From: Tribonema minus
Taxonomy: Eukaryota; Sar; Xanthophyceae; Tribonematales; Tribonemataceae
Assembly: GCA_017506865.1 (NCBI GenBank)
Contig: JAFCMP010000138.1
Location: 118,197-182,196 of the forward strand
DNA: 64,000 nucleotides
Direction: 5' to 3'
Below, in pieces: positions 490 through 41,000 of the stretch. The notes below the pieces were generated by a model. That model was given only the letters and a program-made list of their open reading frames with translations, was not told the DNA's origin and made no database searches. The position numbers were made by a program, and so were the translations under genes. The first letter of the stretch is position 1. Every line of letters starts with the position of its first letter.

Positions 490-3400
490 ATGAGCCGGAA
501 TATTCAAGTGAAGAACCGGGCCCCGGCGCCAATACAGATCAGCGCTGAGCAGATTCTGCGAGAGGCCAGGGACAGACAGATAGATGTCGAAGTGAGTGCT
601 GAGCTCAGCAACATGATGAGTTGAATGTGCTTAGTTGATGGAGTGCGGGTTGCGCCCGAGTTGAACATCTCTTGTTGTATGTACATAGCTCCAAACACTT
701 GTTTTCATCACAGGCTGTCCTGCTTTTTTCATCAACGCCATGCTTCTCCTTAAGCTGCAACTTTACGGCAGTGGAAGTCACTCAGGTCCCCGTTGACGGC
801 ACCAACTCGCGCAGTTGCTGCTCGTACATCAATGCAAAAGTAAATCCTGTTTCCTCACTGCTGTCACACCGTCGACAAACCCATCCACCTCGACTTCCAT
901 TCATAAATCGCTTCTCACATCACATTATTCTCACTGTGCTTTGCGTGCTGGCCCCCCCCCACCCCCCCCAAACGCAGGTCAAGGCGCCGCGCCAGCAGAT
1001 CACCGATGCGGAGGAGCTCACCGTCTTCCGCATGCGCAAGCGCAAGGAGTACGAGGACTCGATCCGCATGCAGCGCCAGCACATCGGCACGTGGATCAAG
1101 TACGCGGCGTGGGAGGAGTCGCAGGCGGAGTTCGCGCGCGCGCGCTCCGTGTACGAGCGCGCCCTCGCCGTTGAGTACACGAACCAGACGCTGTGGCTGC
1201 GCTACGCGGAGATGGAGATGAAGAACAAGTTCGTGAACCACGCGCGGAACGTGTGGGACCGCGCCGTCGCGCTCCTCCCGCGCGTCTCGCAGTTCTGGTT
1301 CAAGTACTCGTACATGGAGGAGATGGTGGGGGATGTTACCAAGGCGCGCGCCGTGTTCGAGCGCTGGATGGACTGGGAGCCGGACGACAATGCGTGGGGC
1401 GCGTACATCAAGTTCGAGACGCGCAACAAGGACACGGCGCGCGCGCGGGAGGTGTTCAAGCGGTGCGTAGGCTACTGCCCTGCGCGCGACGGCGATGATG
1501 TGTGCGTGCTCGGGGCGGCGCGGGAATGCAGGGCACCGTGTGGTCGCTCGCGCAGGGGAGGGGGGTTAACGCTTGAAAGAGGGCTCGCCGCAGTTGCCAC
1601 CGAGTGTACTCTCATATGTGTTCTTTTGTAGTGGGCTTGCAGCCTTTGTTTCTTTTACCAGCAGCAATCGTCAGAGAGTCGGACGCACGTCGCTGCTGTC
1701 ACAAAGCACGCCAACCACTGGTAGCTAGCGCCAAAGACGACGCAGCACAAATCATGCACTCATCGCACGAGGCGCTGCAAGTGCACACGTGCGTCTAGGG
1801 CCATTCACACGCTCACGTATGTGTCACGGGGCGCAGCCGGGAAGGGCGGCTCCATGGATCGACTCTGATGCTGAACTCTTGCTACGCACATGGGTCACCT
1901 TCTGAGTCGGCCACAACCGGCGCATCCCTTTGCCATCTCACACGCACAATATGCATGCCCTGTTGCGCAGGTACGTCGCGTGCCACCCGCACACGCGCGC
2001 GTTCCTCAAGTGGGCGCGCTGGGAGGAGCGGCAGGGGCAGCTGGCGCTGGCGCGCGGCGCGTACGAGCGCGCGCTGAGCGAGCTGGACGAGGAGAGCCGC
2101 ACGGAGAAGCTGTACATCAGCTTTGCTCAGGTATGAAAATGCAGTCAGCAGTGCTCAGTAGATTCGATGTATCAGCTTTGCTCAGGTACAGGCGGTTCAT
2201 CAGTGCTCAGCAGATAGGGGGCAGCCGTACCGAGAAGCTCTACATCAGCTTTGCTCAGGTATGTACAGTACTTTATTTGCCTTCGCTTGAGGGGCGGAAA
2301 CACACCCCACATACTTCACCTTTAAACCTCAAACAGCGAGCAAGTTCGCCATCAGCTCGTCATCTACAAGTACGCCCTCGACCAGATGCCGCGCGACCTC
2401 GTGCACTTTAACCTCCACCAAAACCATATCCTTCAACTCACATTGCAGCTTTCACGCAACTTCACCTTCAGCTGCAAACACCCATGATGCTCCGCGCTCT
2501 GCACCGCTGCTCCATCACTGCTTGCACAGTTTGAGGAGCGCTGCAAGGAGTACGACCGCGCGCGCGTCATCTACAAGTACGCGCTCGACCAGATGCCGCG
2601 CGACCTCGTGCCCGACCTCTACCGCGAGTTCGCCGGCTTTGAGAAGCGCCGCGGCACGCCCTCCGGCATAGAGGACGCCGTCGTCGGGCGGCGGCGCCTG
2701 CAGTACGAGGAGGAGGTTGCGGCGGACCCGCACGCGTACGACACGTGGTTCGACTACGCGCGCCTGGAGGAGAGCACGGGCGACGGCAACCGCGTCCGAG
2801 AGGTGTGTATATAATGCAAGAACGCGTACATCCTGCGCATTGCCCCGCGTGGTTGTAGCGGCACCGTGCCGAAGCAATGCCCCCCCCCCCCCCCGTCGTT
2901 ATATTGAAGGCTTCTGTTGTATGGAAGCATTTTTATGGCAACCTAATCTGCGTGGCTGCAGGAGAGCACGGGCGACGGCGACCGCGTCAGAGAGGTATGC
3001 ATGTATGTACTGTGCTCGTATGTGGCGCAGAGACCAACGGCAGTTGTTGGGGCGACCCCTCCCGCCAGTAAAGCGACACGTCACGGGATTTGCAAGTACT
3101 TCTGATACCAACCTATTTGCACGCCCAGAGAAGAGCACGGGCGACGGCGACCGCGTCAGAGAGGTGTGCATGTATGTTTGTATGAGTGCGTACGCTGCGT
3201 GCAGGTGCGACGGCGCCGCGCCGACGCACTTCCCCCCCCCCGCCCCTGTGTGTTATTGAAAGCTCCTGCCGTGTCAAAGCACTTTGATGGCAACATGATT
3301 TAAGCGGCTGCAGGAGAGCACGGCAGCACGCTGCATGAGCGCGTATTGTGCAGCCGATTCACACCGTCATTTGCGCATCCGCACAGGTCTACGAGCGCGC

Positions 3401-6400
3401 GGTGGCGTGTTGTATCGCCGGCTTGGTGCCCCTTCGCATCTCTTTGCTCGCTCTGGCATGCCCGCACGGCAGCACACTGCGTGAACACGCATTTGCAGCC
3501 AATCGACACCGACATTGCGCGCCTGCGCAGGTCTACGAGCGTGCAGGGCTTCAAATGGCATCCACTTCGCTCCACATTGCATCTCATTGTTCGTCATTGT
3601 CTGCTCAGTCATTTGAGCACAGCAGCACACTGCGTGAGCGCGCGTATCGCACAGTCAACTGACACTGTCATTGTGCGCCTGCGCAGGTCTACGAGCGCGC
3701 GGTGGCGTGCGCGCCCCCCCCGCGCATGTCACTGTTCGCTCAGGAGCTACAGCACGGCAGTACACCGTGTACTCTGAGCGCGTTTCGCGCAGCCACTCGA
3801 CACCATCACTGCGCAGGTCCCTTTGACACCGCCATTGCCCATCTGCGCAGGTCTACGAGCGTGCGGTGGCGTGCCGTGCCGCCCGCTTGGTACCTCTTTG
3901 CTCGCTCTGGCTTTTGAGCACTGTGTCTGTCGCGCAGCCGATTCACACCGTCATTTGCGCGCCTGCGCAGGTCTACGAGCGCGCGGTGGCGTGCGTGCCG
4001 CCCGTCGCGCAGAAGCGCTTCTGGCGGCGCTACGTGTGGCTATGGATCAACTACGCGCTGTTTGAGGAGCTCGCCGCGGACGACCAGGCGCGCGCCAGGG
4101 CAGTGCTCAAGGCCTGCCTGCAGGTACGTATGTATGACAACGCATCAAAAGATCGTAGGGCTCTAGGTGACAAGGTGTGGTTAGCCGTCAAATTGAATGC
4201 CTCTCACCAATAACCGTGGTACTTCTATGTACATATGCTCATATGTCCGAGTGGTACCCACCAGGCGCGCACCAGGGCAGTGCTCACCAGGGCAGTGCTC
4301 AAGGCGTGCTTGCAGGTATGTATGTATGCTCATGTGTGTCCGTGTGGTACCCACCAGGCGCGCGCCAGGGCGGTGCTCAAGGCGTGTCTGCAGGTATGCA
4401 TGTATGTGCATGCATGTGCGGTGCCAACTGATACTAGCTGCTTCTGAGACAGCGGCATTTGTTTGTGGAAACGGATCGAAAGATCGTAGAGCTGTAGGTG
4501 AGGAGGTGTGGTCAGCCGTCAAATGGTTTGTATGGGTGTTTTTGCGCAGTTTCACTGATTGCTAGTGGCAGCTGCTGTTGAGACAGCGGCAGTGCTCAGG
4601 GCGTGTCTGCACGTGTATGTACGTATGCTCGTATGTCCGAACCAGGCGCGCGCCAGGGCAGTGCTCAAGGCGTGTCTGCAGGTATGTATGTATTCGCATG
4701 TTTGCGTGTTGTGTGCATATACTAACTGCTGTTGAGACAGCGGCAGGGCGTGCCTGCACACATGTTGGTATGCGTGTCGGCGATTGGCAGGACGGATGCG
4801 GCGCAAGCATTTCAGCACCCCAGCGTCAATCGCCCCCTCTCCGCACTTTGAAACAGTACCTTCAGCGCACTACTGCCCATTCCCAACAGTAACTGACACT
4901 GCAACTCCCCCCCCCCCCCCTCTCCCCCCCGCCCCCCCCTGCACCTACAGGTGGTCCCCCACGAGTCCTTCACGTTTGCCAAGATCTGGCTCATGCTGGC
5001 GCACCTGGAGGTGCGCGCTCGGGACCTTCCCGCGGCACGGAAAGTTCTCGGCAACGCCATTGGCCGCTGCCCCAAGGGCAAGCTGTTCAAGGGCTACATT
5101 GCGCTGGAGCTGCAGCTGGGCGAGATTGAGCGCTGCCGCACGCTGTACTCGCGGTGAGTCAACTTCAAGAGTGAACCTGAAGAAAGGTCGCGGCGTGCCC
5201 CGCTGCGTGCGTCGGCGGTGATGGTCCGCGCCAGCGATGTTGAGATCCCTGCTGTGTCTTGAAGAAAACGTAGCGGACACACATATGTATACACACGTAG
5301 CATCGACACGTCAAATCACACCGCCTATGCCCCCCCCGCCCCCCCCCTACACACACACACGCACACACACACACACACACTCATTGCCCGCCGTCATTAC
5401 ACATCCCATCCCACCTCACGCATATCCCCCCTCTCCCACCACCACACAGGTACCTGGCATGGTCCCCCGGCGACTGCACCGAGTGGACGCGCTTCGCTAA
5501 CCCTAACCCTAATCCGCGCAACACACTTACACACACACACACACATCGTCCTCTGTCGTCACACATCACACCCCACCTCACGCATCCCCCCCCCCTCACC
5601 CCCCCCACACACAGATACCTCGCATGGTCCCCCGGCGACTGCGCCGCGTTTTACCCTAACCCTAACCTGCACAACACAGTCACACATGCACACACACTCA
5701 CATGCACACACACAGGCACGCACACACACACATATGACAATGCACGACCTCACACGTATCCCCCCAACAGGTACCTGGCTTGGTCCCCCGGCGACTGCGC
5801 CGCGTGGACGCGCTTCGCGGAGCTCGAGAAGACGCTTGGCGAGGGCGAACGGGCGTGCACACACACACACACACACTCATCGCCCCCCATCGTTACATAT
5901 CCCACGACCCCTCACCCTTCCCCCCCCCCCCCCCCCCCCCCCCATCCCCCAACAGGTACCTTGCGTGGTCCCCCGGCGACTGCGCCGCGTGGACGCGCTT
6001 CGCGGAGCTCGAGAGGACGCTCGGCGAGGACGAGCGCGCGCGCGCCGTCTTCGAGCTCGCCATCGCGCAGCCCGCGCTTGACATGCCCGAGGCGCTGTGG
6101 AAGGCGTACATTGACTTTGAAATTGCGGGCGGCGAGCGCGCGCGCGCGCGCGCGCTGTACGAGCGCCTTCTGGAGCGCACCCAGCACGTCAAGGTGTGGG
6201 CGAGCTACGGCGCGTTCGAGGCGGCGGCGGAGGGCGGCGGCGGCGCGGCGGCGGCGCGCGCTGTGTTTGAGCGCGGCTATGCGGCGCTGCGGCAGATGGA
6301 CTTGCGCGAGGTGAGGGCTCTGCGGGGTGTGTACGGGCGTATGGGTATGGGTATGGGGGGAATCGAGTTGGGGGTTGTGTATCCCTGAACAGGAAGGCCA

Positions 6401-7190
6401 CGCATTGCGCAGTACACACTTCCTGCTCGTCGTGTTTGCCCCAAGTCAGAACTTCAAGTTGATGGTTCACACCTATTGCACAACCCAATCCCCCCCCCCC
6501 CTCTCTCACGAGCACGTGGTCAAGGCTTGGTTGTCCCTGTTGCGTCGCAACATAACTTCAAGTTCATTCCTGCGAGCCACTCACAAGAGGCCTACGTGTC
6601 GTCAAGCATGCACTTCCCAAGCAGGCTCAATCAAGCAAGAACTTCAAGTTGATGTTTACCCCCCCCCTCCCCCCCCGCCTGCCCCCTGCAGGAGCGCGTG
6701 ATCCTCCTTGAGGCGTGGCGCGACATTGCGTTTCGACAGAACTTCAAGTTCACTATCACCTCGAGTTCATCCTGCAACCCTATTACAACAGCCTGCGCCA
6801 AGTATGCACTCCCCAAATGCGTGGCTTTGTGCAAGTAGTAACTTCAAGTTGATGATACGCCCCCCCTCTCTCGCGCAGGAGCGCGTGATCCTCCTGGAGG
6901 CGTGGCGCGACATGGAGAAGGCGCGCAGCGGCGGCGACGCGGCGGCGCTGCGCGCAGTCGAGGCGCGCATGCCGCGGCGCCTCAAGAAGAAGCGCATGCT
7001 GCTGGGCGACCAGGGCGAGGAGGTCGGCTGGGAGGAGTACTATGACTACCGCTTCCCCGACGACGAGCAGGCGCCCGCCAACCTCAAGATCCTCGAGATG
7101 GCGCAGAAGTGGAAGACGGGGCTCAAGCGCAAGGCCGCGGACGCGGGCGTCGACGGCGATGGCGGCGACGACGCTAATGGCGGCGCGTAG
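490..7190 (+). CDS. CRNKL1: Crooked-neck-like pre-mRNA splicing factor (Clf1/Syf3/CRNKL1), 8 exons
   Basis: This is the HAT-repeat scaffold of the Prp19/NineTeen complex, acting in the nucleus in spliceosome activation. Exons by splice sites and homology: 490-591, 978-1462, 1971-2130, 2530-2802, 3971-4123, 4951-5153, 5956-6310, 6879-7190. All phases join and give about 680 aa, close to the usual family length. The N terminus carries the family hallmark ([18 protein letters not shown]), followed by HAT repeats with [31 protein letters not shown] and TRTQHVKVW-type motifs (here ERTQHVKVW). The C terminus has the conserved [13 protein letters not shown] block and a basic tail. The start is the first ATG of the conserved N terminus. 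Introns 3 to 7 are packed with copies of adjacent exon edges (separate entries). Family identity is secure; alternative use of the duplicated splice sites is unknown. Confidence 0.95.
2131..2529 (+). repeat. Exon-edge copies in Crooked-neck intron 3
   Basis: After the true donor (GT at 2131) the exon end ATCAGCTTTGCTCAG plus GT recurs with GT at 2186 and at 2259. The last copy keeps about 39 bases of exon ([13 protein letters not shown] when translated). At about 2341-2404 there is also a decayed copy of the beginning of exon 4 (TCTACAAGTACGCCCTCGAC and following). The intron is therefore built largely from fragments of its two flanking exons. Confidence 0.85.
2773..3345 (+). repeat. Donor-side exon-edge copies in Crooked-neck intron 4
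   Basis: The end of exon 4 (GAGAGCACGGGCGACGGC onward, through GAGAG before GT) is repeated with donors at 2803 (true), 2995 and 3164, and a decayed copy near 3313. The copies at 2962-2994 and 3131-3163 are each exactly 33 bases, are preceded by AG and followed by GT, and would encode the in-frame 11-mers [11 protein letters not shown] and [11 protein letters not shown]. They look like potential cassette mini-exons. Confidence 0.85.
3384..3998 (+). repeat. Five acceptor-side copies before Crooked-neck exon 5
   Basis: The acceptor plus exon start, GCGCAG followed by GTCTACGAGCGCGCGGTGGC, occurs with exon-like starts at 3387, 3531, 3687, 3851 and 3971. Spacings are 144, 156, 164 and 120 bases. 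The last one continues into the conserved exon ([10 protein letters not shown]) and is taken as the functional site. The linking sequence between copies is also partly shared (AGCACGGCAGCACACTGCGTGA and similar), so whole units were duplicated in tandem. Confidence 0.9.
4141..4225 (+). repeat. Dispersed intronic repeat, copy 1
   Basis: This belongs to a family of about 90 bp. Its core is AAAGATCGTAGRGCTCTAGG, then TGACAAGGTGTGGTTAGCCG, ending ACCAATAACCGTGGT. Other copies are at 4471-4520, 20013-20110 and 31380-31475. All four lie in introns, in the same orientation as the host gene. No open frame, terminal inverted repeat or convincing tRNA-type promoter box was seen. Confidence 0.75.
4471..4520 (+). 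repeat. Dispersed intronic repeat, copy 2 (short)
   Basis: Contains GAAAGATCGTAGAGCTGTAGG followed by TGAGGAGGTGTGGTCAGCCG. The similarity stops after about 50 bp, so the 3' half present in the other copies is missing. It lies in the same intron as copy 1. Confidence 0.65.
5340..5382 (+). repeat. (CA)n microsatellite
   Basis: An ACACAC run broken by one G, in intron 6 of the Crooked-neck gene. Similar shorter CA tracts recur in each duplicated unit of this intron (near 5525-5545, 5685-5735 and 5857-5878), which fits duplication of one ancestral unit. Confidence 0.9.
5498..5515. repeat. Interstitial telomere repeat (CCCTAA)2
   Basis: TAACCCTAACCCTAATCC directly abuts the truncated exon-7 copy that starts at 5450. 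Confidence 0.85.
5652..5667. repeat. Interstitial telomere repeat (CCCTAA)2
   Basis: TACCCTAACCCTAACC directly abuts the truncated exon-7 copy that starts at 5615. Both this and the site near 5500 are followed by GCACAACACA-type sequence (CGCGCAACACAC and CTGCACAACACA), so the junction itself may have been duplicated once. Confidence 0.85.
6450..6850 (+). repeat. Periodic AACTTCAAGTT motif in Crooked-neck intron 7
   Basis: The 11-mer AACTTCAAGTT begins at 6450, 6554, 6640, 6740 and 6840, so it has a period of about 100 bases. It has 5-base inverted arms around a central C. Flanking bases (GATG or CAC/CAT after it) are partly shared. Confidence 0.85.
6681..6925 (+). repeat. Two acceptor-side copies before Crooked-neck exon 8
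   Basis: CAG plus GAGCGCGTGATCCTCCT ([11 protein letters not shown]) begins at 6692 and at 6879, 187 bases apart. The first copy diverges after GCGCGACAT; the second continues to the stop codon and is the functional exon. Confidence 0.9.
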
Positions 7191-8868: not shown

Positions 8869-9001
8869 TCACCGCTCCGACCTGACGCGGTCAATGAGCT
8901 TGTCCACTTGATCCCTGATCTCCAAACTGACGCGCTCAAATACGGCATCAGACTTGCCGTCTGCAGCGCCAGCAGCAGCAGCAGCAGTAGCAGCAGCAGC
9001 A

Positions 9002-9040
<39 letters not shown>

Positions 9041-11815
9041 GTAGCAGCAGCAGCAGTGCACAAGCAACAGTCAGAAGCACACTCGTCGCAACAATCGCAA
9101 AGTGGATGAACACTTGGAGTCCGCAACGACGTAGCTTTGTCGCCGTATGACGCATCCGCTTGCGGCCGCCAGCGGCCGCTGGTGCTGCTTCAGCATGCGT
9201 CTCTCAGACGCAGAGCTGCCTGCACGCGCACACTTCGACAATACGTGCTGCGCGCATGACTCGGTAGCCTGCACCGGCTTGAAGATTTCAGACACCGACC
9301 AATGCCATTCAATGCTTCTGCAGCAGCGCACGCGAAGAGAAGACATAGCTACAGTAGGTGCAACATGGTAGGAGCGAATGCATGAATTCACTCATGAATC
9401 GCACCTGGGTCCTCAACGTCCCAGTCTATGAACTTCGGGCGCGCCGCCTAGTGCGGCGAATGCAACAGGCAGTAATGAATGCATGGATATGAATTCATTC
9501 ATGAATTCACCTGGATCCTCCACGTCCCAGTCCATGAACACGGGGCGCCCCGCCCACTGCGGCGACAGGATGTGCCCGCAGCCGCACATACTCACCACCG
9601 CATAGAAGTCATCCGGCTCTGCATTGGCGCAGCACAAGACGTGTGGCATGCAATCAGTGCGTCAACAACAACACAGGCGATGTGAGCACCAGCGAATGGA
9701 GCACGTCGGACGCGTCAGCTGCCCCCGCCGCAGCGGCAGATGTGGCCGCGAGCAGTTGTGGATGCCGCATGACAGTCGGAAGAATCAAACAATCTGGGCC
9801 TGTGGCCCTGCTGCGCTAGCAGAATGGGTAGGTATCCCTGCACGAGCGCTGCCTGGCACAGCGACAAGCTCCAGGGGCTGAGTACAATGAGTCGCGAAAA
9901 CGACACAGCGGGGACCGAACGCGACCGCACGCCAACAAACGGCCGCACAGAAGCGATTCAAAGTGGCAGTCACGCAGCGCAGACGATGACCGGGGGATGC
10001 ATATATACCCGTGGCGCAGGCTGCTGCGCTGCGCAGGGCAGCACGCACCACCGCCAGGCCATTGCGTGATCAACTCTGCAGCGGGCTGCGCGAGGTGGCA
10101 GCGGCGGCTGCGCGCCTCCAAGCCACGTGCGTCCCAGCCACGCGCGTTGCGCCGGTCAGGCACGTATGAATACAGGTTTCGTAGCAAGCTCCATCAGAGC
10201 AGGCCACGGCACTGTACCTGAAGCATATGCAAAGCGAAGCCCTGACCCAACCTTCACCCTCACCCTTTAACCCTAACCCTACCGACCGGATCACATGATC
10301 AGTGAGCTGGCGCGTGGGTGAGTGACTGTGCCGCCGGACGCGCTGCGCGCTGAGCAATGACACTCTGAGCAATGACACCCTCTGTGCTTGCCACAGCGTA
10401 CAGGGCGCAGTGCTTCGGCGACAACACAGGTATTTGAGTGCCTCGACGATGCCGCTGACAGCGGCATCGGCGCTGCATTTGACACGGGGAGGCGACGCAC
10501 TACCGCTTAGCACTGCTCTCTGCTGTTTCGCCGGTGACATGGAAAATGGCGGTGGCAGTGACACAAACAAAACGACGTTGCAAGGAGAGTCACGTGTGCC
10601 CGCGCAGCACTGTCTTAGCGTCTCAGCGACGCCGGGGGGAGGACTGCGGCGCTGCATAGGACACAAGATTGGCGCTTAGCACTGCTCTCTACTGTGTCTG
10701 ATCGCCTCGGCAGCGCCATGCACAAACCTAGTTGTATTAAAACCAGTGGTGAAAGGAGCGTCACACGCGCCCGACCGCGCAGCACGGCTCACCGAACGAG
10801 TCTAGAAAATCGCTCGTGTGTGTCCTGCGGACAGCGATGACGGAGCAACGGCGCATGCGGGCAGCGCGTCAGCGGGCGCACACAGGTGCATGCGCGGCCG
10901 TGCGCAGTGACGTTATTTACACACCTACATTGCACCTGCGGATTGGCTTCTTGCAATCAAACAATTCAGACAGCCAGCCAGCCACCTGCGACGCGGCCTC
11001 CGGTCCGCCCTGCACGCAATGGGCCGCCCCCCCCCGTAAACGTGCCCTTGCGGACTCCACTGTGACTTAGGTCACCCCAGCTTCATGTGCACTTCAAAGA
11101 ACGCACCTCATGTCACAGGCAGTGGCCAGCCATACAAATTTGACTCCACCTAAATTGAATCAAGAGAACCTACCGCACAAATGAGTCGGTTTCGCCGACA
11201 AACGGGGAATCCCTTCACAGCTACTGCTCACGGTGACGTCCCCAACGGCGCCCTGAACGGCAGAGGAACTGTGAGTTCAAGTTTTGTGGCTGCGCCATGC
11301 AGCATGCCCTACGTTTTTTGATGGGTGACGACATGTGATGAAGGCAGCCGTGAGCGGACAAATCAAGGAGACACTTAGCTCCTGCGTGATGACATTGCTA
11401 CTGAGGGCTTTCAAACTAAACTAGACATAGTATGCAGTTAAGATGACAAAAGCGTTAGGGTCCTTGGCGGGCGCTACCGACCTGAGCGTCTTGGTGTGTC
11501 TTGTGGAGTGGAAGTGTCGCGATGCGCAAGCACGGTCACTTCTCCAACAACATCGCCGAGTGGCATCTCCCCCCCCACTACATCCTCGTCAATCTGTCAG
11601 CCTATTTTGGACTCAGCCATACACTTCTCATTTCACAGGTTCAGGCGGATATGGGCGTGCGCTGCTTATGTACCTGAGCTCTATGCCATGCGCTGCCATG
11701 GTGGAGATGGCCTTTGGGTGAACGTGCGAGCCCTCCAGCCCGCTGCTCTTGATTATGATGTCGCTGAACTGCTTGTCGCGCACAATGGCCTTGGCCCAGC
11801 CCTCCGCCATCTGCA
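8869..11815 (-). CDS. Arsenate reductase-like (low-Mr phosphatase fold) gene, 5' part missing
   Basis: The protein resembles ArsC of the low-molecular-weight tyrosine phosphatase fold, a cytosolic reducer of arsenate or related phosphatase. Three exons are clear on the minus strand: 11815-11674 (QMAEGWAKAI ... GLEGSHVHPKA), 9618/9616-9511 (DDFYAVVSMCGCGHIL ... FMDWDVEDP) and 8960-8869 (GKSDAVFERVSLEIRDQVD, then stop TGA). Phases of the last two join as DP-D-GKSD. A 22-base exon at 11499-11478 (HTKTLRS) would link the first two in phase if the 9616 acceptor is used; this is tentative. The N-terminal CX5R P-loop exon was not found upstream. A (GCT/GCC)n tract sits directly before the last acceptor, and a decayed copy of the exon end DWDVEDP plus donor lies at about 9395-9450. 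Family call fairly sure, full structure not. Confidence 0.72.
8968..9058. repeat. AGC/GGC trinucleotide repeat at a 3' splice site
   Basis: About 90 bases of AGC then GGC then AGC triplets. On the minus strand it reads (CTG/CCG)n and ends a few bases before the CTGCAG acceptor of the last arsenate-reductase exon, where a polypyrimidine tract is expected. It opens long Ser/Gly, Ala and Leu frames that I regard as non-coding. Confidence 0.85.
9395..9450 (-). repeat. Donor-side exon-edge copy, arsenate-reductase intron
   Basis: On the minus strand this reads FIDWDVEDP-like sequence ending in CCAG plus GTGCGATTCATGAGTG. The true exon end at 9511 reads GATCCAG plus GTGAATTCATGAATG. It is therefore one decayed duplicate of the exon end together with its donor, placed downstream in the intron as in the Crooked-neck gene. 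Confidence 0.75.
10267..10282. repeat. Interstitial telomere repeat (CCCTAA)2
   Basis: TTAACCCTAACCCTAC, preceded by CCAACCTTCACCCTCACCC, which may be a decayed extension. It lies in an intron of the arsenate-reductase-like gene. Confidence 0.8.
10480..10800. repeat. Two decayed tandem copies, about 171 bp
   Basis: CGCTTAGCACTGCTCTCTGCTGT near 10504 and CGCTTAGCACTGCTCTCTACTGT near 10674 head two units. Both go on through GGCGGTGGCAGTG/CAGTGGTGAAAGGAGCGTCAC-like sequence to CGCGCAGCAC. Not recognised as coding. Confidence 0.6.
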
Positions 11816-23383: not shown

Positions 23384-23428
<45 letters not shown>

Positions 23429-32400: not shown

Positions 32401-33366
32401 TGTGGGGCCCAGTGTCAGTGCTCGGATGCCGCAGCAGTACCGTCACCGCCGCTGCCGCCGCCGTTGGCGGACGACGCCGATGCTCAGCAGCAGCGCTCTA
32501 ATGCAGCAGCAGCGGAACGCCCGGCGGCGGCGGCAGCGACGGCGACGGCGGCGGCGACGAAGCTGCAGCAGCGGGCGCGGGCGGTGGTGGAGGGGCCGGA
32601 ATCGCGCGGCATGTACCAGTGGTTGGCGGGCAGCGATGGCGGCAGCGGCGCGGCGGTAGCTGCGGCGGCGGCGCTGTTTAGGTTCACCGGCCAGGGGCTG
32701 TACGGCCTGCGGTCGGCGCAGCTGCGGGCGCGGCACGGCGTGGATTTGGACGCCGTGAACGCGGCAATAGCGCAGGTGCGGGGTGACGCTCTGTCGCTAA
32801 CATGTTAACCTGGAGCCTTCTACTAGTAGTGTGCAAGCAGGGCCCAGAGTTGCTGAGATCTGTTATGCGAGCGAGCTGCCCCCCCCCCGGGGGTGAACAA
32901 CGCGGGGGGTTCTGTTTGCCAGCATGGCATTGGCATTGGCCAATTGTGCAACTTCAATCAAACATTCCTCCATAACATGTGCACAAGCAGGTGCTGCTTT
33001 CGTGCAGTGTCCAAACGAAGAAAACCTTTGTGGATGAATGAAGTGAAACGGCTGAAAGGCACACATGTCCGGACTCCAGATTCATTCACCCCCCCCCGCA
33101 CCCCCGCCCGCCCCCCTATGCAGGCAATCAACACCGCAGGTGGCGGGTTCATAACGACCGAGGAGGTGCCAATGGCATCAAGCTATGGCAAAGAAGCGGA
33201 GCACAGTGCGCAAGCAGAAGAGGCTGGGGAGAATGTTGTTGCGCTGCAGTGGGCTCTTGGGGGGGAGACAACACTAGAGATGGCATGGCCAGGCATTGTG
33301 GAGCACACGTTGCGCATTGTCAAGCGCGACCTTAGCTACATCACAGGGTGCAACTGCCGCGTCTAG
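19332..33366 (+). CDS. CobW/COG0523 (ZNG1-type) metallochaperone GTPase, 10 exons
   Basis: This G3E-family GTPase is expected to hand zinc or another metal to a client enzyme. Exons, all in phase: 19332-19517, 19850-19969, 20687-20749, 21730-21868, 22883-23029, 23514-23575, 24175-24372, 25222-25294, 31991-32775 and 33124-33366. Motifs: Walker [10 protein letters not shown] (residues about 31-39), the metal-binding CXCC motif GGCFCC, guanine-specificity NKVD, and a CobW C-terminal domain ([11 protein letters not shown] ... AVFNLSGRR). A His-rich stretch ([15 protein letters not shown]) after that domain could bind metal. The gene reaches about 670 aa, longer than most relatives, due to a Gly/Ala-rich insert and a C-terminal extension. 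The last exon ([15 protein letters not shown]...) joins in phase but is inferred. Without it the frame stops at 32808. Intron 8 holds a 5.5-kb antisense retroelement. Confidence 0.88.
20013..20110 (+). repeat. Dispersed intronic repeat, copy 3
   Basis: AATGGAAACAAACCACAAGATCG, then TAGAGCTCTAGGTGACAAGG and CGCCGCTGCTGCAGTCATTGG. It is nearly full length relative to the copy at 31380 and lies in CobW intron 2. Confidence 0.75.
21230..21775 (+). repeat. Acceptor-side tandem array before CobW exon 4
   Basis: Units headed by GTGTAACCGCAGACGAGCGG begin at 21317, 21444, 21582 and 21718 (spacing 127, 138, 136), with a partial unit before them. Only the last continues into the conserved exon ([18 protein letters not shown]). 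Translated, the earlier units read [32 protein letters not shown] and [16 protein letters not shown], so they are decayed copies of the exon start with acceptor. Units 2 and 3 read TTTGTAAGC/TTCGTAAGC, a donor-like string, where the true exon has TTCGGCAAGC. Confidence 0.9.
21958..22105. repeat. GGC/AGC trinucleotide-rich tract in CobW intron 4
   Basis: About 150 bases of imperfect GGCGGTGGC and AGCAGC triplets. It opens Gly-, Ala- and Arg-rich frames that I judge non-coding. Confidence 0.8.
22640..22700 (+). repeat. Acceptor-side exon copy truncated into telomere repeats (CobW intron 4)
   Basis: GCGCCGTCGCTCGACAGGGGCTG at 22638-22660 matches the true acceptor and first exon bases at 22867-22889. 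In this copy the exon sequence stops after GGGGCTG and continues as TAACCCTAACCCTAGCC (22661-22677), then AATCCTAACCCTGCC (22686-22700). Confidence 0.85.
23047..23098. repeat. Interstitial telomere repeat (TTAGGG) cluster
   Basis: GGTTAGGTTTAGGGTTAGGG and continuation at 23046-23072, then GGTCAGGGTTAGGGTTATC at 23082-23100. It starts 17 bases after the donor of CobW exon 5. The orientation is opposite to the CCCTAA copies near 22661. Confidence 0.85.
23378..23500. repeat. (CTG/CCG)n tract before CobW exon 6
   Basis: About 120 bases of CTG and CCG triplets that end 11 bases before the CCCTCAG acceptor of exon 6 ([20 protein letters not shown]). It occupies the place of the polypyrimidine tract, as in the last arsenate-reductase intron. 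Confidence 0.85.
24060..24220 (+). repeat. Acceptor-side exon-edge pair before CobW exon 7
   Basis: CTGCTGCAG plus GGCGCAGACGTCGAGGGCGG begins at 24077 and the true exon (GGCGCGGACGTCGAGGGCGT) begins at 24175, 98 bases apart. The first copy keeps GTCTCGCACGAGGCCGTGAC with a one-base shift and then diverges. Confidence 0.9.
25336..25490 (-). mobile_element. 5'-truncated 3' end of the retroelement
   Basis: On the minus strand this reads the last codons and 3' UTR of the element (GGCGTTTGAGTGGTTGTCGT ... GCGCCCTGAGCGAGAATCAATAA). The same sequence recurs at 25636-25760 as the end of the long copy, so a severely truncated older insertion lies immediately downstream of the long one in tandem. Confidence 0.8.
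25744..29331 (-). CDS. Retroelement reverse transcriptase / endonuclease (pol part)
   Basis: RT motifs by residue: LDLKNAFN (catalytic D about 223), [12 protein letters not shown] (about 278-289) and YMDD (about 318-321), so the catalytic triad appears intact. A thumb-like region follows ([16 protein letters not shown] ... LPTRHGGLG). Then come about 300 residues rich in Ala, unusual as a linker. The C terminus has [17 protein letters not shown] (CCHC) and RRMDIVLP...[11 protein letters not shown] with later K residues, fitting a restriction-like endonuclease as in R2-type elements. It starts inside the end of the upstream frame. The two frames appear to be one ancestral polyprotein separated at the seven-G run at 29311-29317. 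Confidence 0.85.
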   Translation of the reverse strand: MHGHTGGLQQAARFLQPKTVAIPDDDCFAAMQSKHPPAAPGEQLHELSGMVDQLVAKAADMPAELSLLQGEGIEPETVAKLIQRASPYSGAGPSGLRYSHLQDALRTSWGRHEFAAVLTRWLQTVMREAARLPDAFWQLHGAGRLTPLAEQQEDGTAKQRPIVCGEVLQRLCTSVYVADRKDFLAELLEPDGQYGVAVSAGAEKAAMAGKLAYELGHWQFMLDLKNAFNMVFVLAAAEWVAAQLPDFLDYFIGTYVRTRPRLLFQHVDGSTRIIMSQRGFKQGDPAAPMLFCGAIAQCLKRFNEAAAAQRARRRMGAYMDDANVRTGACTLTQDDIQAVAQLKQHFAEVGLELNLTKSRALPGRGHVVTDHERQLLQQLGVQLVGDTDENQNRGAVLLGVPVGHSSFVDAWLRREAGAGGAGARFAERCARLTSPRAMFRLLRYCVVPRMTYCLRTIPTTQTAPAAKEWDRVTQWVLEHSMGLQPPGQTWRQFEQSGAHFHLAAHGPALQQARLPTRHGGLGITSACDIADAAYVAGTLQALQPALSGWAGVLQQAAPQAAADNAAEDAATQATPAAAAAAPAPAASAAATVTAAAAVASGGATAPAAATASAAGRAYGAAIPATHDAAAAGSGAAAAAQAAPAAAAAAAAHGATTPAAAAAAAAAAAPASEAAAAAAAHVAPQVASAASLTAASTAAAAGIGNTAATGPTSLRAAAAPATGAASAGGAATVPAATAAMAMAAANAAGAAPTPAAAATPLAAAATAGGTAAAPAHAAAAAVNAGAARSTPAMLQGAAAAEVARLPLMRTIATAATSLRAATGDKLEHILPPALTPLQQQPPTQQPPLRPTAGGGTGADAACVLDASALQLQCSLKRPNQSALADAVATELADKVEADLQQLPQGTQRTQALARFRSQRHMHSIGMAFLNEPMYSTTASFDGLSWQLAVKRAIGVEEQTAGCKLCGKSPGGTLHARLCQAPRVKAHDTIVHNSVKRATQRLLRQYLKTGLVDEDYTPFLGSAGPPGSRRMDIVLPADAFPVTGYDDPTRHLPLMVDVTCFEAQVASRAAKTAADPERCCRDQEAAKTTHYSGHYDQNCYKLATLAIGSFGSIGEQGRKLLEAVATEYASRMSVPGGARPKALKGIALARLRSALSAALHMAYSGRVMTHMAESRGGGHMEEDVGEDPEMPFGGGGV
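28896..31082 (-). CDS. Retroelement N-terminal zinc-finger protein part
   Basis: The first 155 residues hold a basic segment (AHKRKR) and a C2H2 finger with C127, C130, H150 and H155. A second Cys pair set follows at C185/C188 and C211/C214. After that comes a long Gly-, Ser-, Arg-rich region (residues about 270-440), likely disordered and nucleic-acid binding. A helical region follows ([37 protein letters not shown] is in this part). Meaningful sequence ends near 29318, at the seven-G run where the frame passes to the RT part. The rest of this frame to 28896 is out of register. It probably binds nucleic acid for target-primed integration. Confidence 0.75.
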   Translation of the reverse strand: MKRISWRRREARIANSESAQKCKESDLACAQAQDISTSAADGNGACQQDDGTSGSSRATGDGRAAHKRKRVQNDGWSISDQTGEGEHTGGQSAVKRSRTGHNSLEQQRLMLDDEAGGGGSADPEYKCNLCDLVVKKGMSLLSLQQRLNAHIAAKHQRKHHSGTATTFLERSDLSTSHLQTIYTECALCKNLFHANKTFRVDSSDASAGKHCRKCRPITSPAAVAATLSTTASAAPLAPDASTATATTSLPQQQPACTPIGNPYAKGPAHAQQAPAAQAGGSSSSGSSKRPERGGSSATRGGRGRSGGRGRGNGGRVRSGSNDADVSSSRATSGSRTGGGSSSGAGGGSAAGTKDSGAGNGRSSDASSRSGGASNSGSGARTQNGRGGRGSGRSSDSGGRGCGRGGRGGGGGGPRAAGAATAAAAPGPAGAAGGAGGLFTWTISTPAVAAVLDSISLDELCKLQFATTRSLARPRNRRYVGAALENAATHLLAHTMTMFVNAAREPDSAGRVQRLQRSTILHHLMPSLITSTDGAPGITRSDRIRMLARGELDRLVPALLAHARAHRRWRARQQTEAAINAYVLQCMGTRGGYSRQRVSFSPKRWRYLMMTALPPCSPNTPPLRQGNNSMSYPAWLISLWRKQPTCQQNSACYRGRELSQRRLPSSSSEQALTVEQAHRGCATATCRMRYAQAGDGMSLLLSSHGGFRPLCGRLRGCRMPSGSCMARGA
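31145..31155. repeat. Short interstitial telomere repeat
   Basis: CCTAACCCTAAG lies 6 bases outside the coding start side of the long retroelement, next to the candidate target-site repeat at 31161. Confidence 0.5.
31380..31475 (+). repeat. Dispersed intronic repeat, copy 4
   Basis: AATGGAAATAATTCAAAGATCG, then TAGAGCTCTAGGTGACAAGG, GTTAGCCGTCAGTGCCTTCC and CGCCGCTGCTGCGGCGATTG. It is the fullest copy and lies in CobW intron 8, downstream of the retroelement. Confidence 0.75.
31640..32075 (+). repeat. Three acceptor-side copies before CobW exon 9
   Basis: CAG plus GCCTCGTGCGCGCCAARGGC begins at 31810 and at 31991 (true). An older copy of the inner part (CCACGGCGCGCCGCTGTCAACC) lies at about 31645-31720. 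Unit length is about 181 bases. Each unit carries the same intron-like linker (TTGAATTTGCCTTGAAAT / TTGAACTTGCCTTGAAAT) and the CGCCGCGCTTCACGCTGCA tail. Confidence 0.9.
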
Positions 33367-34599: not shown

Positions 34600-34995
34600 G
34601 GCGCCTTGTGGCTTGCTGCTGCATGCCGTGCATGCACGTGGCGGCAGCAGCAGCAGCACAGCCACTCCACCCACCGCCGCTGCTGCCGCAGCTGCCAGCG
34701 CGCGCTCACGCCGCTGCCGCCGCCGCCGCTGCCGCCGCCGCCGCCACAGCCGCTGCCAGCGCCGCCACAGCTGCTGCTGCCACTGCCAGCACCGCCACCG
34801 TCGCTGCCGCCTGCGGTTGACACCGCCGCTGCCGCCGCCACAGCCGCTGCCAGCACCGCCGCCACAGCCGCCGCCGCCGCCGCCACAGCTGCTGCCGCCG
34901 CAGCCGCCGCCAGCACCGCCGCCGCCGCCACAGCCGCTGCCAGCACTTGCGCCGTTGCCGCCGCTGCCGTTGCCGCCGCCGCCGCCACAGCTCTC
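34600..34995. repeat. Long GCC/GCT/ACA triplet-rich tract
   Basis: About 390 bases of imperfect CCGCCGCCACAGCCGCTGCC-type repeats directly after the stop codon of the bromodomain gene (minus strand). It opens long Ala, Gly and Pro frames on both strands that I consider artefacts. It may form part of the 3' UTR. Confidence 0.8.
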
Positions 34996-35000
34996 GCGTG

Positions 35001-38000
35001 TCACGACGCCTGCTGCATCATGCGCATGAGCTCCTCGTTGCTGCGCACCTCGTCGAGGTCGACCTCCGCGGACGCCTGCTCGCGCTTGCGGCGCTCCTCC
35101 TGGCGCTTGGCCTCGGCGAGCGCCTCCTCCTCCGCCTTTTTGCGCTCCGCCGCGTCCTTGCGCGCCGCCTCCGCCTCCGCGGCGCGGCGCGCCTGCTCGG
35201 CGACCTCCTCGCGCAGCTGCGCCTCGCGCGCCGCGGCGGCAGCCTGCGTTGCGCACACGACCGGCGAGCGCAGGTGTGCGGCGAGGGATGAGGGTTTCGT
35301 CAGCGACGTCGCGTCGCGGCGCCGTGTAGACGAAGCAGCGGCGAGAGAGCTGGCGCCAAACATGTGGTCTCAAGCAGCGGTGATTTTGAAGTGTCTGGCG
35401 ACTTGAATCGCAGCGATCTCATATCTGCTCCGCCGCGTCCGCCGCCTTGCGCATCGTGCTACGCTCTCACTGTGGCACCACTGCCCCTTCATAAGCAGTT
35501 CACAGACGGTCTGTGGTGAGCGCCAGCAGAGGCTGGCCGCACCCTCACTAACCCTAACCTTAACCCTAAGGCTGCCACGGCTGCACCCTCTCTCGTCGAC
35601 CCTGACGTACTCTGCGCGCACGACGTTGATGTCGTCAGCGCCCTCGCCGACCAGCCTACTCTGCAAGTACCGACCAACGTACTCTGCATGTACGTCAGCG
35701 CATGCTCTGTCAGCGCCTGCTCTCTCACCTCTGCCTCGCGGCGCATGAGCGCTTCCGCCGCCTTGCGCTCCTTGGCGCGCCGCTCGCGCTCCGCCTTCTC
35801 CTGCCGCGCGACGCTCCAGCTGTCCGCGCCCCCCTCCCCCCCCTCCTCCCCGCCCCCGTCCTCGTCCCCCAAGTTGAAGTCGTCATCATCCAGCACCTCC
35901 TCGTCATCGGACTCGCCGATCTGCAAGTCCAGAGGCGCCTCCGCTCCCGCCGCCGCCGCGGCGTGAATCACCGGCATTATCACCAGCGGCACATGCGCCT
36001 CCTCTGCCGCCGCTGCTTCCGCCGCCGCCTCTGCTGCCGCCGGCGCCGCCGCCGCAGCAGGCGACGGCGACCGCTCGCGGGCGACCTTGGGTGGACGCGT
36101 GGCGGCAGCAGCGCTCGTCTCTTCGCCGCTGTCGCGGTCTGAGGCGCTGCCGGCGGCGGCGTCCGCGTCGTCGGAGCGCCGCCGCTTGCGGCTCGCCGCC
36201 TCCGGCTGCTGCTGCTGCTGCAGCGGCGGCGGCGGCGATGGCGGCCGCGCGGGCTCCGGTGCTGGCGGTGCCGCGGGTTGAGGCGCGCTGGAGTTGATGA
36301 GGGGGGGGGGGGGGGGGGGGGGCATGAGGGGGTTGATCGATGATGCTGGATGTTGATTCGGAGACGATGCAGTCAGCACAGAATGTTTAATGGTAAACAA
36401 ACGTTTAATGGTAAAAAAATATAACAAGCGTCTCTTGCGTTGACAGTGGTGCTCTGTGTTGCAGTTTTGGTTGAGCGCTGTCGCAGCACTGCAAGTCGTT
36501 GAGCGCTGCATTCCAGACTCCGCTGACGTGCAGCAAGAACTCGCCGCGCTGTTCAGCTGCAGCGCACAACCCAGCGTACCGGCAGAGGCAGCAGCCGCAT
36601 GGAGCAAATGCACAAGGCCGGTGAGGTCAGCCTTTGACAGACGGGGCACACGCGCGCCAGCGCACGCAGCGCAAGCGTCACCGCAAAACGCTCAGGACCA
36701 ATCACGCGGATGCACCGCAGAGCGCAGAGCGCTGCTGCAGCATCACAAACACCCCACCCCCATCCCTCCACACGTGCTCACCTCGCGCCCGCCGGCGCCG
36801 GCGCCGCCGCCGCCACCGCCGCTGCCGCAGCAGCCGGCACGTGGCCCTGACTCCAGCGCGACATGAGCTCCGCCAGCTGGCGCAGGTGCGCGGGCGCGAC
36901 GGCGTCGAGGGGGACGCGGTGCACGCTGCCGTCCTCGCGCCAGCGCCGCGCGGGGACGACCTCGCGCAGCGCCTTCCAGACGGCCCACGCGAACGCGGCG
37001 TCGCGCGGCGCGTGCTGCGACTGCGCGGGCGGCGGCGGCAGCGGCGGTGGCGCGTCAGCGGCAGGCTGCGGCGCATGTGGTGACTGACGTGAATGAGCTA
37101 CTCTGTGGCCATCAAGAAGCGTGGGTGATGTTGGCATTATGAGAGGCCCGGCAGATGCGTTCCAGACGGCCCACGCGAACGCGGCGTCGCGCGGCGCGTG
37201 CTGCGACTGCGCGGGCGCGGCGGCGGCGGCGGCGGAGGCGCGTCAGGGGGAGGCTGCGGCGCATGTCATTGTGACTGACACAAGGTTGCGGCGATCAGAA
37301 GCGCGGATTTGCGGGTGAAATTATGCAAAACTCCGCAGATGCGTTCCACATGGCCTACGCGAACGCGGCGTCGCGCAACGCGTGCTGCGACTGCGCAGGC
37401 GCGGCGACGGCCGCGGCGGGGTCAGTGGGAAGGTGGTGAGCGAGATGACTGAATTAGTATGGCCAGCGGGAAGCGTGGTGGTGTTGGCGTTGCGCGAGGC
37501 CTTGCAGGTGCCATAGACGGCCCACTTGAACGCGGCGTCGCGCGGCGCGTGCTGCGACTGCGGGGGCGGACGCGGCGGCGGCGGCGCGTCAGGGGGAGGC
37601 TTCAGCACGTGTCATCGTAACTGAGACAAGGTGCGGCAACCAGAAGCGCGGGTTTGCGGGTGCTATGCAGAACTCCGCAGATGCGTTCCAGACGGCCGAC
37701 GCAAACGCGGCGTCGCGGCGGCGGAGCGGTAGTGCGGGGACGGCGTGCGAACGCATGCTGCTTGCAGCAGCGCGCTCTGTTGCATCGCGCGACGGCGGCA
37801 CACGAGGCGCGGCGCATGCTTTCACATCCCACTCTGCCGCATGAGGCGCGTGGCACCCGTGTCCTCCGCACACAGCGCACAGCCCCAGTGTATAAAACTG
37901 CTGCACTGCTAAGTGCCGCACAAAGGCCGGCGGCGCCGCACGCGCCGCACGTCGTGGCGGCACCACTGCACGCGCGCGACAGTGCGTGAGAATCACGAAT

Positions 38001-41000
38001 GCGCTGTCCCATGGCGACACAGCACTATGCGCGACGAATCGAAAGACTGCCAAACCTCGAGAGGCCGCGCCCGCTACCCCCCAATCACTACGTCGTGATG
38101 GAGCGCGCCGACGTGCTGTCCGTCAAGGTCCTCGCACGTTTCAAGAAGGCGGCAGCGACGCTCCCACTTGAAGTTAACGCTTGCGCCGAGCACTGCACGA
38201 CCGCATGAGCGCGCCGCTGCGCAACAATCACGAATGCGCTGTCCCGCGAAGATGCAGCACTACGTGCAATGACTCGAATGCCCCTCAAACCTCGACAAGC
38301 CATGCATGCATCGCTTACGCTGCCGCTGACGCGTGCTTTCGTCTGCGGCCGACTCACAGCAGCAGTGCTCAGCACATTGAAGAGCCGCGCCGCGTCCTTC
38401 ACCAGTTTGCTCCAACTTGAAGTTAACGATTGCGCCGAGCACCGCGTGCATCGCTCGCAGTGCCGAACTAACGCACGCAGCGCACCGAGGCAGCGCATTC
38501 ATCTGACTCACAGCAGCAGCGCTCAGCACCTTGAAAAGCCGCGCCGTGTCCTTCACCAGCTGCTTCATCTCCGCGTCGCTCGGCCGCGGCACGCCGTCCG
38601 CCGCCGCCGCCGCCGCTGCGCTGCCGCCGCTGCGCCGCCGCCGCTGCTGCCGCCGCCGGGCGCGTGGTACGACTGCAGCGCCTGGTGGTGCCGCGCGAGG
38701 GCGTCGTCGATGCGGCTCGACAGTTTCACCGAGTCCCTGTTGATCTCCGTGTTGGGGTCCGGCGTGAACTTGATGGCGTTGGCCACCACGAGCCGGCAGT
38801 CCGCGATGAAGTCGTCCTGAGCGCGCGCGATGTTGTTGAGGGGGGGGGGTGGGGGGGGGGGGTGGGGGGTCAGATTGCGGCTGTACGGTGCGCCAGCCGC
38901 CACGTGCCGTGTTCGCGTGCCGCTCCCATTTATGCCCCCCCCCATCTTGAAGGTTCTGGCAACAAACGGCACCTGCAGTTGAAGCGCCGCACTGAAACGG
39001 GCGTCTTTCGTGCCTTCGAGCATTGGCTGCATTTCGAGGGGTGGTTGCCGGCTTCAGCATCACATGCAGCAGCAATGCTCTGACGACGACATATCCCCTT
39101 CGCGCGCACTCATGGGACTGTGGCGGCATGTAACCAGGTGTCTTGCTTGCCTTCTCACATTGTTGACGTTGAGAAGCGGTTATTGACTTTGAGGTCACAT
39201 GCAGCAGCAAACATCGAGGCAGCAGCGTTACCCCCCCCCGCGTGCACTCACGGGACTGTGGTACGCCCTTTTGACGCTGTTGACGTTAACAAGAGGTTAC
39301 CAGCTTCAAGGTCGCATGCAGCAGCGAACATCGAGGCAGCGGCGTTTCCCCCCCGCGCGCTCTCACGGGACTGTGGCGTCATCTAACCAGGTGTCCTGCT
39401 TGCCTGTTCTCGTTGTTGGCGTTGAAAAGAGGTAGTAACCAATTTCACATGCAGCAGCAAACATCGAGGCAGCAGCGTTTCCCCCCGCGTGCACTCACGG
39501 GACTGTGGTACGCCCCCTTGTCCAGGCGCTTCCGGATCGTCCCAAAGTCCATGGGGCTCTTGATGACGCTGGGGTAGTTGGGAATGCCGTCGCGCGCGGG
39601 GTCAACTGGAATCCGGAACCACCTGTTAACCTCCGGCGACTCCCAGAGGCTGCGGAGCATAGAGTGGCACGCCTGCGCAGCGCGCGGTGGGGGGGCAGGC
39701 GGCAGATGCATTAGAGTTGAAGTTCATAAATGGTGTTGCACTTGAAGTTTGTCCGCGCTGTACTGGGATCGATGTGCAAGGAAACCGCCTGAATACCTCC
39801 GGCGACTCCCAGAGGCTGCGGAGCATAGAGTGGCATGCCTGTCGCAGCGCGCGGTCGGGGGGGGAGGGGCATGGCGGGCGGCGGTTAAAGTTGAAGTTCA
39901 TGCGGTGTTGCACTTGAAGTTTGTGCGCGATGTACTGGAATCGATGTCAAGGGTCACGGCGGGCGGCGCGTTCAAGTTGAAGCTCATGAAGTGTTACACT
40001 TGAAGTTTTTGCGCGATGTGCTGGGATTGGTGTTTGAAGCCAGCTGTTGCGCCGGTTGCTGCAGCGCGAAGGTAGGAATGTATACCCCAACACTGTGTGC
40101 ACCCCACCTCAAACACTGCGTATTGTAAATGGGACCCCCAGCATCTGTGTGAGAGAAGAAAAAGAAGAGCGGAGCGTCTCAACCTCGGCCAATCTTTGTT
40201 ACCACAATTGTGCCCGTCAGCCACACCAATTGGTGCCAAACGCGGCGCCGTCATTGAAGTTTTCTAAGCAGTGCTCAGTCGTGGGTGAGCGTTTGCGCCG
40301 CATAGCTGCTACCTGATGGGCCTTCGACCTACTGCTCTGATGGTGCTGTATCACTTGCAGCGTCAGCGCTGAGTGAGCGTCACGCGCTGCTGCGTCCACG
40401 TGCGACGGACGATTGACGCAGTGCGTGCCGCACACGCCGCACGTGGTGCTGCAGACAGCGCAGCTCTGACACTGCACACTAGTGGCTAGCGTTGAAGGTC
40501 TAAATGCACAAACTTACAGCAGGTGCGCGATGTCGAAGAAGCATGGTCTGCCGCGGCCGGCCGGTGACTCGCACAACTTCCGCCTGCACACAGACTACCT
40601 GGCCAAGGCTGCCTAACCCTGACCCTAACCCTAACCCCATTGTTTCCCTGCCATGGAAAGCTAGCAACTGAGACTGTATGAAGACTACAGTATGCCACAA
40701 CAATTCCTCCTCATGGGTATGCATACCTTCAGCCACGGCGGCTTCTGCGCTGAACTGGGCGCACCCCCTTTCTTTTTCTGGGATGCCACCGCGCCATTGC
40801 CGCCGCCGCCGCCGCCGCCCAACCCGCCACCGCCACGCTCCGCTGCTGCCGCCGCCGCGCCTGCTGCTGCGCGGGTGCGCCGTGTGAGCAGTGTGCTTGC
40901 GGAGCTACTGCGTTATGGCGCATGATGACTGCGCAGCGCAACCGCAAGAGCACACACGCGCCGCAGCCCAAGCACAGCATGCAGTGTCCGCTGCTGCTGC

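Follow-up and report, generated by a model that had tools for sequence, protein, structure and literature searches.

Genes and exon-edge copies in the window

We analysed a window of 64,000 nucleotides (nt) of the Tribonema minus genome (assembly GCA_017506865.1, contig JAFCMP010000138.1, positions 118,197 to 182,196 of the forward strand); all positions below count from its first letter. T. minus is a stramenopile, a xanthophyte alga, and its assembly comprises 158 Mb in 554 contigs. The window contains a Crooked-neck (Crn) gene, a CobW-family gene, a bromodomain gene and an arsenate-reductase-like gene, the CobW and arsenate-reductase names being those of an initial annotation. That annotation had described introns of these genes as carrying decaying tandem copies of the adjoining exon edge. 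Here we show that such exon-edge copies are real and that they reach well past the window. Over all its 680 amino acids the Crn product equals P0001, an annotated T. minus protein, so our splice borders for Crn match the public annotation. Each exon edge was scored against its adjoining intron, with the introns of other genes as the null, and the cut-off was set at the 99% null score (19.5). The Crn gene and its copies are as follows.

490-7190, plus strand: Crn gene
490-591, 978-1462, 1971-2130, 2530-2802, plus: Crn exons 1 to 4
3971-4123, 4951-5153, 5956-6310, 6879-7190, plus: Crn exons 5 to 8
2095-2263, plus: exon 3 donor array; exon end 2095-2130 copied at 2223-2258 with GT
near 2170-2184, plus: shorter remnant of the exon 3 donor, by eye
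2360-2419, plus: copy of exon 4 from +37 onward, lying in the intron upstream of that exon; acceptor outside the match
2764-3177, plus: exon 4 donor array; copies 2950-2994, 3119-3163
3316-4004, plus: exon 5 acceptor array; AG and exon start at 3387, 3687 and 3851, true start 3971
near 3531, plus: shorter exon 5 acceptor copy, by eye
4083-4745, plus: exon 5 donor array; copies 4260-4281, 4282-4315, 4353-4393, 4641-4681
5361-6040, plus: exon 7 acceptor array; copies 5450-5497, 5616-5649, 5771-5869, true exon from 5956
5497-5512, 5653-5667, plus: telomeric tracts into which exon 7 copies 1 and 2 continue
6692-6726, plus: exon 8 acceptor copy

In the other three genes we found the following.

19332-33366, plus strand: CobW-family gene, 10 exons, clean reading frame
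19332-19517, 19850-19969, 20687-20749, 21730-21868, 22883-23029, plus: CobW exons 1 to 5
23514-23575, 24175-24372, 25222-25294, 31991-32775, 33124-33366, plus: CobW exons 6 to 10
21245-21784, plus: exon 4 acceptor array; copies 21329-21394, 21456-21528, 21600-21679
22638-22674, plus: short exon 5 acceptor copy, running into TAACCCTAACCCT (22661-22674)
24077-24120, plus: exon 7 acceptor copy
31644-32077, plus: exon 9 acceptor array; copies 31644-31715, 31810-31896
36971-37743, minus strand: bromodomain-gene acceptor array; copies 37151-37217, 37331-37401, 37487-37569, 37670-37743
38358-38417, minus: donor copy of the bromodomain-gene exon ending at 38512
39783-39838, minus: acceptor copy of bromodomain-gene exon 39499-39672
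39043-39520, minus: repeat units on the donor side of exon 39499-39672; by eye, some 16 nt of exon are included, below cut-off
9405-9459, minus: arsenate-reductase-like gene, donor copy; the true exon ends at about 9511

Copies above cut-off adjoin 7 of the 14 internal borders of Crn and 3 of the 18 of CobW. The CobW exon 5 copy (about 22638-22660) scored 17, below the cut-off, yet it is visible by eye. In the bromodomain gene four acceptor copies at one border, one donor copy and one further acceptor copy exceeded the cut-off, and the single copy reported for the arsenate-reductase-like gene was recovered. Bromodomain donor copies that had been placed around 39100-39380 fell below the cut-off, although the repeat itself (39043-39273 against 39295-39520, 80%) is present in a self-comparison of the window. 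This self-comparison (direct repeats, E<=1e-3, shift below 2.5 kb) gave 59 local direct-repeat pairs, counting low-complexity and coding repeats. The exons of the bromodomain gene are predictions; we placed one acceptor manually near 37032 and joined two predicted exons into 38512-38816. Matches in the gene's coding-like or low-complexity stretches (e.g., 35013-36203, 36781-37005, 37488-37586) are uncounted.

CobW intron 8 also holds, at 25750-31100 on the minus strand, what we take to be a long interspersed nuclear element (LINE)-like element; a 93% similar fragment lies at 13699-14030, in the 13700-15720 region.

Exon-edge copies in a wider sample of genes

We extended the analysis to ten gene models, namely Crn and CobW from the window and eight PF00118 chaperonin genes from elsewhere in the genome (L024-L026 and L028-L032). 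Ten PF00118 stretches had been fetched, and two (L023, L027) were dropped because the gene predictor gave no gene there. The models of Crn, L026, L030 and L031 are based on annotated or transcript-derived proteins, that of CobW on its clean reading frame alone, and the borders of L024, L025, L028, L029 and L032 come from a home-made gene predictor. In L025 one acceptor was placed by hand, and predicted exons judged to be copies were taken out of the models. The null sample included L030 edges scored against the introns of L031; since these are homologous pairs, they make the cut-off stricter, not looser.

Of 112 splice borders, 40 have copies of the exon edge in the intron next to them, and these copies number 91. 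Donors (21/56) and acceptors (19/56) were affected alike. The fraction of borders with copies was 9/12 in L031, 8/10 in L025, 7/14 in Crn, 4/6 in L032, 5/10 in L024, 3/10 in L029, 3/18 in CobW and 1/14 in L026. Serial copies thus occur at many borders of several unrelated genes, as first described, and over a wider range of genes. The two to five copies first described are exceeded at the exon 2 donor of L024, which has seven. Successive copies are spaced by a median of 155 bp (interquartile range 129-185; 63 of 80 spacings between 90 and 200 bp), in agreement with the unit length of 100-190 bp given in the initial annotation. Its statement that copies account for much of the intron length holds as well: of 43,372 nt of intron, 16,707 (39%) fall within array spans, and introns with copies are longer (median 885 nt, n=30) than those without (473 nt, n=26; Mann-Whitney U test, p=1e-5).

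Further cases were seen by eye in protein-level tables of the genome, in PF00118 and, in small number, in kinesin and tRNA synthetase families; we derived no rate from these tables because most copies are too short for them. A DNA search of the genome with the Crn exon 3 edge, the one border searched in this way, matched only itself and the neighbouring copy.

Structure and splicing of the copied units

For the composition of the units we used the 80 copies that reach the splice site. Their exon part has a median length of 59 nt, 69 of them retain the splice dinucleotide, and in 52 the neighbouring 50 nt of intron resemble the true flank (above the 95% null score). Most copies therefore look like contiguous tandem units and not like bare exon fragments. 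The duplicated unit consists of an exon edge, usually with the splice site and mostly with flanking intron, and is often serially repeated. The geometry is head-to-tail and direct, with 55 direct-repeat arrays in the ten genes. Within some arrays the copies have a common exon part, 118 nt in L031 exon 4 and 79 nt in L032 exon 1, suggesting that a single founder was amplified. In other arrays exon ends vary. Copies begin at varied points of the exon; an idea taken from the window, that the copies are mini-exons of the form AG-copy-GT, was set aside.

Splicing could be followed in L031. The transcript-derived protein P0121 (EukProt record) differs from the L031 product at 4 of 544 residues. This one protein joins true exon to true exon without the L031 copies, and the copies are therefore intronic in L031. 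L030 and L031 are close Cpn60 paralogues; L030 is matched by P0122, at only 86% in exon 1 and at 91-100% in the other exons. Both genes have their first five splice positions in common, and the L030 introns are shorter. Despite these common positions, copies adjoin 0/10 borders in L030 and 9/12 in L031. As the first five splice positions of L031 are those of the copy-free L030, no new intron was created there. In L026, a CCT7 gene, intron 1 appears to be a GC-AG intron with the donor GCAAGT.

Arrays concentrate at splice borders in this sample

Arrays were far denser in introns (55 in 44.7 kb, 1.23 per kb) than in intergenic DNA of the window (2 in 14.1 kb, 0.14 per kb; Poisson 5e-6). Forty-one of the 55 intron arrays touch an exon edge or an edge copy; the strict count is 40 of 54, because one of the 41 is an exon-exon pair within HAT repeats. 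Since a constrained exon keeps its copies recognisable, we repeated the array search with exons masked, comparing intron with intron; the LINE-bearing CobW intron and introns above 2.6 kb were omitted. This search gave 34 arrays in 40.2 kb of intron (0.85 per kb), which differs from intergenic DNA with a Poisson probability of 6e-4, or 7e-3 when the doubtful segment 10000-13600 is omitted from the intergenic set. Thirty of the 34 lie at a border (no more than 15 nt from the end of an intron, or including an edge copy), against 9.7 expected from uniform placement by our own formula, and 0 of 20,000 simulations reached 30.

A similar result was obtained in random 10-kb stretches, where predicted borders lie inside 19 of 54 arrays, compared with 9.3 after rotation (P=2/2000). 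This test covers the 16 of 20 stretches with a predicted multi-exon gene (54 of 60 arrays), and its gene prediction is incomplete and may call copies exons. Start and stop codon edges carry copies in 0 of 12 cases, against 40 of 112 splice borders (Fisher p=0.009), with 7 of the 12 flanks shorter than 650 nt. The set had 13 edges, one from L025 being dropped as it turned out to be no stop codon; the L026 stop scores exactly at the cut-off, away from the edge. Together, these data point to a local process of duplication that prefers exon-intron borders. The initial annotation had proposed to ask genome-wide whether copies are any commoner at borders than elsewhere; in our sample they are. Its suggestion of local duplication near splice sites, by break repair or by slippage, is supported in its border preference.

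Divergence of the copies

The copies had been described as polar, with only the copy nearest the rest of the exon intact. This stands as an observation, though not as evidence for a mechanism, since selection on the exon yields it. By this reasoning, constraint acts on the functional edge and not on the copies, and an insertion survives only on the intron side. Over 20 borders (aligned columns only), copies resemble each other to the same degree in their exon parts (identity 0.809) and intron parts (0.796), while the identity between copy and true sequence is 0.865 in the exon part and 0.807 in the intron part. On average, the copies diverge as expected of neutral intron DNA next to an exon under constraint, and polarity therefore needs no special mechanism.

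Differences between copies and exons fall on codon positions 1, 2 and 3 in numbers of 165, 140 and 295, close to our own expectation for a neutral copy and a synonymously evolving exon. Among copies of at least 93% identity the numbers are 12, 15 and 68. Computed from such counts, third positions exceed the first two by about 7% in the three classes of higher identity and by 14% in the class of lowest identity; in the verified genes (L031, Crn, CobW, L026) the surplus is 10, 7, 10 and 15% by identity class and does not rise from zero. Copies at one border share ancestry, so codon-position counts are non-independent.

Telomeric tracts in introns

Perfect CCCTAA/TTAGGG tracts of at least 11 nt occur 63 times in 341.8 kb, against 0-8 times for nine hexamers of the same composition. 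Thirty-six of the 63 lie in modelled introns and none in 43.7 kb of exon. None was found in 10.5 kb of intergenic DNA of the window, and one (10268-10281) in 14.1 kb when 10000-13600 is added, a segment kept out of this count as a possible intron of the arsenate-reductase-like gene. Tracts in the window include the following.

5497-5512, telomeric tract
5653-5667, telomeric tract
10268-10281, telomeric tract
22661-22674, telomeric tract
23054-23098, telomeric tract
35548-35559, telomeric tract
40622-40637, telomeric tract

By eye, three acceptor copies end in a telomeric tract (two of Crn exon 7 and one of CobW exon 5), and the exon 2 donor units of L029 and L031 hold such tracts ahead of the next copy. 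Of the 18 tracts no more than 200 nt from a border, 15 are directed away from the exon (p=0.004, with non-independence within introns). CTAAC and GGG motifs have roles in splicing, and we therefore do not take this orientation as proof of healing. In mammals, interstitial telomeric sequences are described as scars of break repair (PMC7215372). The tracts found here are alike in being short TTAGGG stretches inside chromosomes; compared with the scars described there, they recur in introns and abut three exon-edge copies.

Other features of the window

What is presumably a Helitron-like open reading frame occupies 53700-62550 and contains one internal duplication shifted by 171 bp; a tandem array follows at 62780-63990. 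A direct duplication of 219 bp with 85% matches lies at 51632-52062; it may belong to an intron of a gene on the minus strand, at around 50960-52900. A AACTTCAA/TTGAAGTT motif seems frequent in non-coding DNA, in introns throughout the window (e.g., 6450-6860), and it is palindromic in some array units.

A proposed mechanism and its alternatives

We propose recurrent tandem duplication of about 100-190 bp straddling exon-intron borders, through repair of staggered breaks, and give this chain as a whole about an even chance of being right. The starting lesion would be a staggered double-strand break, or a pair of nicks on opposite strands, near the border and tied to transcription or splicing. 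Fill-in or synthesis-dependent repair would copy local sequence, in part perhaps from another allele, and would sometimes leave telomeric filler. Arrays might then expand and contract by unequal exchange, and duplications within the exon would be lost because they disrupt the protein. Inference begins with the breaks themselves and extends to their tie with transcription or splicing, to the route of repair and to any part played by another allele. Precedents exist for single steps: small tandem duplications are known from breaks whose 3' overhangs are complementary (PMC8355091), breaks at human splice sites vary in density with expression, although replication origins were the stronger factor in that study (PMC9645720), and a review reports splice-site breaks upon release of paused polymerase (Dellino et al., in PMC7463922).

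Several observations weigh against this proposal. The comparison covers one genome, the breaks are deduced from sequence, and half of the gene models (5/10) are predictions. No border of L030 (0/10) or L028 (0/8) has an edge copy above the cut-off. Twenty-eight of the 80 copies have no similar intron flank, including high-identity ones (L024 exon 2 and one at L025 exon 2), and the flank match is no better in copies with exon identity of at least 0.93 (median 0.66) than in the rest (0.65). Self-similarity of 50-nt intron windows is found at every distance from the border (36% of 1473 windows from 52 of 56 introns; null 1%), and also in 12% of the windows of 24 introns without edge copies. We read the flat profile as arrays filling their introns, and assign the 12% to older or internal arrays. 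Splicing motifs could instead account for the orientation of the telomeric tracts. Finally, in the verified genes 40 of 48 differences (5/3/40) in copies of at least 0.93 identity are at third positions. This excess in young copies is far above what simple duplication predicts and does not fit the neutral expectation.

Allelic divergence already standing at the birth of a copy would account for the third-position bias; the alternative is constraint on young copies. L031 copies carry the P0121 residue at both covered differing sites (4/4 and 2/2 copies). Functional constraint is weakened as a cause, as the bias is mostly lost in less identical copies and copy-copy identity is alike in exon and intron parts. 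That borders are breakage hotspots, copied time and again by repair from the other, diverged allele, is an extension we put forward only tentatively and think rather improbable. The stronger version of constraint, in which copies are functional as alternative or decoy exon edges, is in our view very improbable. Young copies do change mostly at third codon positions and 69/80 retain the splice dinucleotide, but this retention is, by our reasoning, about what divergence predicts, the transcript-derived P0121 skips the L031 copies, the paralogue L030 has none above the cut-off, and less identical copies lose most of the bias. Still less credible is an assembly artefact, with unresolved haplotypes or repeats written in tandem: young copies differ in an allele-like way, whereas a divergence of 10-40% with indels is seen in many copies, which also keep to exon borders and lie on many contigs.

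The remaining explanations concern where and how duplications arise. Tandem duplication might act uniformly over the genome, with border cases standing out through the constrained exon and through purging inside exons. Neutral polarity and the average exon and intron divergence are as this idea expects, internal and intergenic arrays exist, and intron windows are self-similar at all border distances; we weighed it after seeing that flat profile. It was set back by the exon-masked test, which keeps 30/34 arrays at borders; intergenic arrays are about nine times rarer (six times with exons masked), while the detection advantage of a constrained exon should be at most about twofold. We hold uniform duplication to be unlikely. 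If instead coding DNA, being GC-rich and transcribed, were the hotspot and only duplications at intron edges survived, the scarcity of arrays in intergenic DNA and intron interiors would be explained, and the median exon part of 59 nt would fit. The start and stop edges speak against this (0/12, with seven flanks below 650 nt and one score equal to the cut-off), as do the intronless myb open reading frame and the LINE, which have none, the 8.9 kb Helitron-like frame, which has one, and the arrays at intron ends without an exon copy above the cut-off (L024 intron 4, L028 intron 2, L030 intron 5). We hold a coding hotspot, too, to be unlikely. Slippage of replication or Okazaki fragments at hairpin-prone intron edges, with a nucleosome-like unit length and without double-strand breaks, agrees with the median spacing of 155 bp and with palindromic stretches seen by eye in some units (L031 exon 4, L032 exon 1). 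Telomeric filler at three copy ends is unexpected from slippage, which we consider quite unlikely.

Relation to known duplications and implications

Small tandem duplications are of a known kind; the focus on splice borders and the serial repetition are the unexpected part. We did not find serial duplication of splice borders described in the open-access (PMC) literature, subscription journals being outside this search. Closest are the repair-mediated duplications of Pace et al. (2009, PMC2671141), which are likewise short, local and tied to break repair, and which can bring exons or splice sites into nearby introns. Our 80 spacings (78-710 bp) and exon parts (21-135 nt) fall inside their size range (up to 619 bp) bar the longest spacings. 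Pairs within 50 bp were filtered there as tandem, whereas the T. minus copies are mostly contiguous, often serial and border-centred: 52/80 copies share the intron flank and look like contiguous tandem units, unlike the pairs kept there, in which insert and template are more than 50 bp apart, and 28 do not share it. Donors of partial exon and intron sequence number 4 in that study's table for 824 donors, in contrast to the border-centred copies here. Intron gain by tandem duplication (PMC3443670; Drosophila cases in PMC2891723) is alike in its tandem exon sequence and splice site, the new intron arising there between duplicated AGGT sites; in T. minus, by contrast, existing introns grow, and none was created in L031, the only gene compared. 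The tandem duplications at break overhangs cited above are alike in being head-to-tail, but those reported there are insertions below 100 bp, compared with a spacing of about 155 bp, often repeated, at splice borders. Introners (PMC9860276) also change introns genome-wide, whereas each T. minus copy matches its own exon edge and the one border searched genome-wide gave no shared element family.

Gene predictors can call edge copies as exons, as happened with the predictor used here. Intron growth is usually credited to transposons and small indels. In the ten T. minus genes a large share of intron length lies in mostly border-centred arrays, which turns it into a series of events at known positions. 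One could then ask if splice sites are hotspots of mutation, if breaks at these sites vary with expression, and by what means a cell finds the right site among several that are nearly the same. If copying from the other allele is true, each copy would be a snapshot of a past coding allele that then decayed neutrally, with a difference at birth of about 10% at third and about 1% at first and second positions, and the introns of T. minus would have been both grown and archived by allele-copying repair.

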